Positions 42,938 to 43,994 of a DNA stretch of 64,000 nucleotides are shown in pieces. This DNA comes from Chloroflexota bacterium. GTDB lineage: Bacteria > Chloroflexota > JAJPGV01. The stretch spans positions 62,001-126,000 of the forward strand of contig JAJPGV010000015.1 in assembly GCA_021325635.1 (NCBI GenBank), written 5' to 3'. The position numbers were made by a program, and so were the translations under genes. Numbering within the stretch: the stretch's first letter is position 1; each line of letters starts with the position of its first letter. Under the pieces are notes generated by a model. The model saw only the letters and a program-made list of their open reading frames with translations, was not told the origin of the DNA and did no database searches.

Positions 42938-43009
42938 GGCGACGTGGCCAAGTGGTAAGGCGGGGGTCTGCAAAACCCCTATGCAGCGGTTCGAATCCGC
43001 TCGTCGCCT
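42938..43009 (+). tRNA. tRNA-Cys (anticodon GCA)
   Basis: A complete cloverleaf can be folded: acceptor GGCGACG with CGTCGCC, D-stem GCC/GGC, anticodon stem GGGGT/ACCCC, loop CTGCAAA with anticodon GCA at 42970-42972, and T-arm AGCGG TTCGAAT CCGCT. The discriminator base is T43009, as required for cysteine tRNA. CCA is not encoded. The 3' part of this gene (from 42976) is repeated perfectly at 43957-43994, marking an integration site. Confidence 0.97.
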
Positions 43010-43013
43010 CGAA
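42976..43013 (+). repeat. 38-bp direct repeat, copy 1 (tRNA-Cys 3' end; att-like)
   Basis: Bases 42976-43013 span the end of the anticodon stem, the T-arm, the 3' acceptor and four bases beyond the discriminator. They are identical over all 38 bases to 43957-43994, which lies 981 bp downstream. Repeats of tRNA 3' ends are the usual mark of tyrosine-recombinase integration. Confidence 0.9.
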
Positions 43014-43266
43014 TCTACGCTTGAATTGTCCCGAATGAGGGCCGCCAACTCAGCCATGCCGGCTGCTGAGAGAGCAACGTTGAGGAGAACCCGGACAATT
43101 TCTTGCCATACTCAACACACCATGGCGGGCAAACGCGCCAACGGCGAACACCCGTAGCCACGTGATCCCCGATCTCCAGCGCGAAGCGGCGGACAAGATG
43201 GACGCTATCTTAGCCCGCAGAGCGCCCAAGCAATCAGCTGATATGCTCCGAGTCGCGGACTAAGCG

Positions 43267-43575
43267 ATGCTAGTGAAACTCAGCGGGCGGGGCACCGTCA
43301 CGATTCCCAAAGAGCTACGTAAGGATCTACCTGAGGGCACCGTCATGGAAGCCATCAAGCGCGACGATGGTGTCCTGGAACTCCGGCCGCAGGAGCGCGA
43401 CCCCGATCAAGCGTGGTTTTGGACTGAACGCTGGCAGCAGATGGAGCGGGAGGCTGATGAGGATTACGCGGCCGGGCGCTACAAGACGTTCGACAACGTG
43501 GAGGCCTTCATCGCAGACCTTGATACGTACGTCGAAGCGAGGAAGCGCAAGGGTGCAGCTCGCCGGCGTGCGTGA
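43267..43575 (+). CDS. AbrB/MazE-fold antitoxin
   Basis: A 102-residue protein. Residues 1-45 form the swapped-hairpin DNA-binding domain (LVKLSGRGTVTIPKELRKDL), followed by an acidic middle with WFWTERWQQMEREADED and a toxin-contacting tail (FDNVEAFIADLD) typical of antitoxins paired with RelE-like toxins. Such antitoxins neutralise their partner and repress the operon. The stop overlaps the toxin GTG by 4 bases. It lies inside the tRNA-Cys-bounded element. Confidence 0.87.
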   Translation: MLVKLSGRGTVTIPKELRKDLPEGTVMEAIKRDDGVLELRPQERDPDQAWFWTERWQQMEREADEDYAAGRYKTFDNVEAFIADLDTYVEARKRKGAARRRA

Positions 43576-43877
43576 AGTATCAACTCGGCGATTCCTTCCT
43601 AGCTGACTATTTCCGCCTCACCGAGCGCGAACGCCAGCTCTTCAAAGAAGCCATCCACAAGCTGAATGAAGCCTTCGCCAACCGCACCGGCTGGCCACCC
43701 GTTTGGCCCAGCAGCCTCCGCGTTAAGGCTCTTGCCGGCCATCCGAACCTCTGGGAACTGACGTGGTCGTTCGCTGGTCCTGACGGCCGAGCCACCTTCG
43801 AATTCATCGACGTAGACGGCGAGCCGGGCATCAAATGGCGACGCGTTGGCCGCCACGACATCTTCCGCCAGCCTTAG
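43572..43877 (+). CDS. RelE/ParE-superfamily toxin
   Basis: A 101-residue protein starting at the GTG overlapping the antitoxin stop. The LRVKALAGHPNLWELTW strand pair, the GRATFEF strand and the end WRRVGRHDIF match the RelE-like ribosome-dependent mRNA-interferase fold. Basic residues late in the protein are consistent with RNA binding. In such modules the labile antitoxin is degraded under stress or when the element is lost, freeing the toxin. Activity is inferred from fold and gene pairing. Confidence 0.83.
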   Translation: MKYQLGDSFLADYFRLTERERQLFKEAIHKLNEAFANRTGWPPVWPSSLRVKALAGHPNLWELTWSFAGPDGRATFEFIDVDGEPGIKWRRVGRHDIFRQP

Positions 43878-43956
43878 CCCCACGGTTGGGCACAAGCGCT
43901 GGCACAATCAGAGGAACCATGGGCGGACATAGCCCCAACAGCCCCAAATCGAACTG

Positions 43957-43994
43957 CCCCTATGCAGCGGTTCGAATCCGCTCGTCGCCTCGAA
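43957..43994 (+). repeat. 38-bp direct repeat, copy 2 (tRNA-Cys 3' fragment)
   Basis: An exact copy of 42976-43013 that lacks the 5' half of the tRNA, so it is not a functional tRNA. Downstream of both copies a GGGCCGC occurs at the same offset (26-32 bases beyond the repeat), suggesting the flanks are also distantly related. Confidence 0.88.

Follow-up and report, generated by a model that had tools for sequence, protein, structure and literature searches.

A probable decayed integrative element with an intact toxin–antitoxin pair at a tRNA-Cys gene of a Chloroflexota bacterium

Introduction

Decayed ICEs or IMEs that have lost their integration and transfer genes and kept attL and attR are known as CIMEs (PMC5704250). 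The locus described here lies in a window of 64 kb (the whole stretch of Chloroflexota DNA that was analysed) and resembles a CIME, as both att repeats are retained (38/38 bp, one copy being the 3' end of a tRNA-Cys gene), the integrase gene is gutted, with about 9 codons left at its start and about 40 at its end and without the catalytic Tyr, and no transfer gene is present, a toxin–antitoxin (TA) pair being all that is coded in the 943 bp between the repeats. It differs in its small size of less than 1 kb between the repeats and in its content of a TA pair only. A second point of comparison is given by the pSAM2-type integrative elements (AICEs) with RepSA, which likewise use a tRNA-targeting tyrosine integrase; AICE-like RepSA elements have been described mainly from actinomycetes. 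The nearest full-length counterpart at tRNA-Cys, in another member of the phylum (G048, contig L085), has RepSA, while the window element differs from this type in having no replication or transfer gene.

That a TA pair can stabilise a genomic island is exemplified by HipAB in CGI48, an island of 48 kb in a tRNA-Trp of Shewanella (PMC8978831). As in the island described there, the TA pair of the window is found within a tRNA-integrated element, but instead of 48 kb this element retains just the TA pair between its repeats. With regard to the pair itself, a comparable described system is PrlF-YhaV, which consists of an AbrB-fold antitoxin and a toxin of the RelE superfamily. The window pair shows the same combination and is likened to it by class, not by sequence, and it differs in that its toxin family fits no Pfam or NCBIfam model.

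Results and Discussion

The tRNA-Cys(GCA) gene is the sole tRNA that ARAGORN calls within the window (Table 1), and a single match to the tRNA together with the adjoining interval as well as one full tRNA-Cys copy were found in the genome. The repeated part of the tRNA begins on the 3' side of the anticodon stem and runs to the tRNA end; the repeat is perfect over 38 bp, as the initial annotation had reported. Since no other exact direct repeat of at least 18 bp occurs in the 64-kb window (at k=18 all 21 repeated words derive from this pair), a chance origin is negligible, and a direct repeat of the 3' part of a tRNA at both borders is what tyrosine-recombinase insertion into a tRNA gene leaves. 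The interval has a GC content of 60.6% compared to a mean of 65.1%, which places it among the lowest 0.6% of 943-bp windows.

Table 1: Features of the tRNA-Cys locus (positions within the 64-kb window).
Feature	Position	Strand	Description and evidence
tRNA-Cys (GCA)	42938..43010	+	attachment site; ARAGORN
attL, tRNA-side att repeat	42976..43013	+	last 35 nt of tRNA-Cys + GAA; 38/38 identity to 43957-43994
dead integrase gene, 5' end	43122..43148	+	ATG + codons for MAGKRANGE; N-terminus typical of integrases
dead integrase gene, 3' end	43141..43263	+	C-terminal tail TANTRSHVIPDLQREAADKMDAILARRAPKQSADMLRVAD, stop TAA; integrase-tail matches
antitoxin	43267..43575	+	AbrB/MazE N-terminal domain and conserved C-terminal QAWFWTxRWQxMERE; Pfam MazE_antitoxin
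toxin	43572..43877	+	101 aa, GTG start overlaps antitoxin stop; RelE/ParE fold
attR, distal att repeat	43957..43994	+	exact copy of 42976-43013

According to the initial annotation no integrase is present between the repeats. This stands in so far as there is no intact one, but both ends of an integrase gene persist at 43122-43263, where an integrase start (MAGKRANGE) is joined to a C-terminal tail (SHVIPDLQREAADKMDAIL). Reading the 253 bp from the tRNA-side repeat to the antitoxin in three frames gave MAGKRANGE at 43122 and NTRSHVIPDLQREAADKMDAILARRAPKQSADMLRVAD in a different frame, with the TAA stop of this tail at 43261-43263 and the deletion junction between about 43141 and 43155. Related integrase tails read NTYSHV..., and the remnant either has CGT instead of the codon for the catalytic Tyr or has lost this position at the junction. 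Judging from the length of full-length relatives, about 1 kb (~340 codons), the catalytic Tyr included, would be gone from the gene. The tail, whose assignment as integrase-derived is based on about 25 residues, matches a PF00589 integrase fragment elsewhere in the same genome with E=3.9e-4 (57% over 28 aa). At E<=0.01 it also matches 58 further genomes of the phylum (best 9e-7), and many of these matches belong to frames of ~390-450 aa that encode full-length integrases. The N-terminal part is just 9 residues long and can be compared with MAKRANNEGS, MGKRAAGEGS and MGKRGHNEGS from the same integrases; an N-terminus of the type (K/R)R-x(2,3)-(G/N)E-G-(S/T) occurs in 12 of 29 retrieved integrases, and a relaxed version of this motif fits 2 of the 1680 ATGs in the window, one being 43122. 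When the relic peptide alone was compared with Pfam and with PDB sequences, all matches were weak and unrelated. Inside the tRNA-side repeat the two remnants have the order and orientation that would be expected, the start being located 112 bp from this repeat and pointing away from it. The integrase gene that accompanies the att site in such insertions is represented here by this remnant. A separate observation was made on contig C56 of the same genome (L029 1042-2500, near 319500-321000), where a DUF4160/DUF2442 gene pair in a TA-like arrangement adjoins two pieces of integrase, a 104-aa C-terminal fragment and another tail remnant (THVIQEAQRDAAGKIDAVLAG); it is a second place in this genome with small paired genes among integrase remains.

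The position and orientation of the remnant agree with those of the full-length integrase in G048, where the genes after tRNA-Cys encode an integrase of 431 aa (PF00589) and a RepSA initiator (Pfam E=2e-136). On another contig of G048 a 43-nt copy of the tRNA-Cys 3' end adjoins a PhdYefM antitoxin and a YoeB-like toxin, and a common 57-bp att region (98%) suggests that a single element has its two ends on these contigs. The insertion by a tyrosine recombinase that had been proposed from the repeat is further supported by the gutted integrase, which lies close to the tRNA-side repeat within the interval, and by the full-length integrase of the counterpart at tRNA-Cys in another member of the phylum. 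The kinship between the window element and the G048 element consists in the same tRNA and a general integrase tail only. The G048 integrase and RepSA at tRNA-Cys would be compatible with descent from an ICE or IME, and a prophage could also have been the parent. A GAACTG likeness upstream of the distal repeat, seen in the window and in G048, was too short to count. Taken by itself, the G048 locus (L085 6206-9582 and L080 174-1097) is a RepSA-bearing AICE-like element at tRNA-Cys in a Chloroflexota genome.

The initial annotation had named conservation of the interval in all relatives as an observation that would speak against its reading. Among 60 further phylum members searched, none has the interval beside tRNA-Cys. 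The flanking genes at 19 tRNA-Cys loci include no neighbours in common with the window, and no relative came up when contigs were scanned with the flanking radical-SAM protein. Two further loci were noted on the way: in G039 (L101 1344-3078) tRNA-Cys is followed by a convergent integrase with its 3' end facing the tRNA, which is a different arrangement at the same target, and in G053 (L081 7381-7417) the 5' half of tRNA-Cys recurs as a stray copy of 37 nt at a place where no tRNA is called.

Both reading frames of the TA pair are intact. The antitoxin matches PF04014 (MazE_antitoxin; E=1.8e-6, 28.2 bits, cut-off 24.7), which agrees with its description as AbrB-type. The toxin is without a family match in Pfam, NCBIfam, PADLOC and PHROGs, a PDB sequence search with it gave no credible match, and sequence profiles did not place it in the RelE/ParE superfamily. 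The three best PDB folds for its AlphaFold2 model (pLDDT 91, 50-sequence alignment) are RelE 3bpq (E=8e-4), YoeB/ParE 6n90 and RelE1 9g12 with TM values of 0.52-0.67, and by this predicted fold the toxin would belong to the RelE/ParE superfamily, so that the designation as RelE-like is right by fold. Relatives of the toxin were found in 35 of 400 genomes of the phylum, in 142 confirmed contig stretches (best 80 of 142 retained) and in many Actinomycetota, and a homologous antitoxin adjoins toxin relatives in other genomes. Two viral contigs have both a toxin relative and an integrase gene, so that elements with an integrase do act as carriers of the pair. A further viral contig (L086) has an integrase-like tail pattern but no tRNA and was set aside. 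Compared with its G168 homologue the toxin has a dN/dS of 0.24/1.5; this low value against a distant homologue shows constraint on the toxin family and not on the window copy since the death of the integrase.

The same TA family occurs in Nocardioides sp. GY 10127 (L163 5389-7294) in a 1.83-kb islet without integrase, which is delimited by a perfect repeat of 50 bp from the 3' end of tRNA-Glu. Since congeners have near-empty sites, with as little as about 80-100 bp from tRNA-Glu to tRNA-Asp (G446, G403), an insertion at the Nocardioides tRNA-Glu is shown. This TA family was in none of the tRNA-Glu to tRNA-Asp intervals examined in other Nocardioides; most of the longer ones have no tRNA-Glu repeat, and L213 and L215 have an extra partial tRNA-Glu copy. 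Near the distal repeat of the islet a doubled GGGGCAACAC motif was observed that resembles integrase arm sites. In an actinomycetotal MAG (L180 5432-6459) the family lies between 100-bp repeats that are ~90-91% identical and appear to be the 3' end of a protein gene. In a survey at >=50 bits covering 77 TA entries, of which L171 and L182 were edge artefacts, flanking direct repeats were found around 3 of ~75 TA loci compared to 4 of 294 control positions, an enrichment that is not significant and suggestive at most. We regard it as decidedly unlikely that modules of this unnamed AbrB/RelE-fold family recurrently outlast all other genes between tRNA att scars in two or more phyla (Chloroflexota tRNA-Cys and Actinomycetota tRNA-Glu), be it by holding the scar via addiction or as minimal att-bounded units moved by integrases in trans.

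Taken together, we interpret the locus, with a probability of about 0.86, as the CIME-like remnant of an integrative element that decayed in tRNA-Cys and retains an intact TA pair, and not as a mystery cassette. Following the way in which such integrases work, a tyrosine integrase would have recombined attP with the 3' half of tRNA-Cys, keeping the tRNA whole and duplicating 38 bp from its 3' end at the distal border. A later internal deletion of about 1 kb would then have removed nearly all of the integrase gene and fused its remaining ends, after which the element could no longer excise itself, while the TA operon directly behind the integrase would have remained intact. From the action of type II pairs, loss of the interval is probably costly to the cell, and through this addiction the piece may have outlived the rest of the element; its persistence may thus be due to the TA pair. 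With both att sites intact, an integrase of the same specificity could presumably still excise the interval in trans. Of the two readings offered in the initial annotation, the relic held by addiction fits best in view of the partly deleted integrase, while for the non-autonomous cassette both att repeats are indeed intact but no sign of mobilisation was seen.

A possible but unlikely course of events is that the ancestral element was already minimal, with a tRNA-Cys att site, one integrase and the TA pair in about 2 kb, and that later damage affected the integrase only. The tight spacing would suit such an ancestor, as the antitoxin starts 3 nt past the integrase stop, only 79 bp separate the toxin from the distal repeat and remnants of other genes are not visible. 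Genes can, however, also be brought together by deletions, the G048 counterpart is far larger than the window element, and at none of the full-length integrase loci examined (by ORF lengths and starts only) is a small TA operon of two genes obvious right after the integrase.

We consider it very unlikely that the TA pair between its att sites is a non-autonomous mobile cassette moved in trans by the integrases of other elements, with its small size reflecting lifestyle and not decay. Both att repeats are perfect, which speaks for such a cassette, and the same toxin family does occur in the independent integrase-free tRNA-Glu islet and, less clearly, between the L180 repeats. The genome also has several full-length integrases, but none was found beside a tRNA-Cys. 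Moreover, a second copy of the unit was not found in this genome, the partly deleted integrase within the interval indicates decay, and the survey of flanking repeats is of no help to this explanation. It is hardly credible that the 3' end of tRNA-Cys was duplicated in tandem around unrelated genes without site-specific recombination, a possibility the initial annotation had raised against its own reading. Such a duplication is compatible with the repeat and the TA pair alone, but is contradicted by a repeat that starts inside the tRNA and ends just past its 3' end like integrase att sites, and by the integrase remnant between the copies, which such a scar would not hold.

Conclusion

In summary, the decayed integrative element at tRNA-Cys presents a clean and readable end state of element decay, in which scar, gutted integrase and scar are preserved and only the addiction-type genes are intact. 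To our knowledge such remnants are little described in this phylum. The locus is a genome fossil of a known kind and by itself changes no model of mobile elements, and together with the Nocardioides islet it raises a question that can be answered by counting, namely whether TA pairs are over-represented among the last genes between tRNA att scars.
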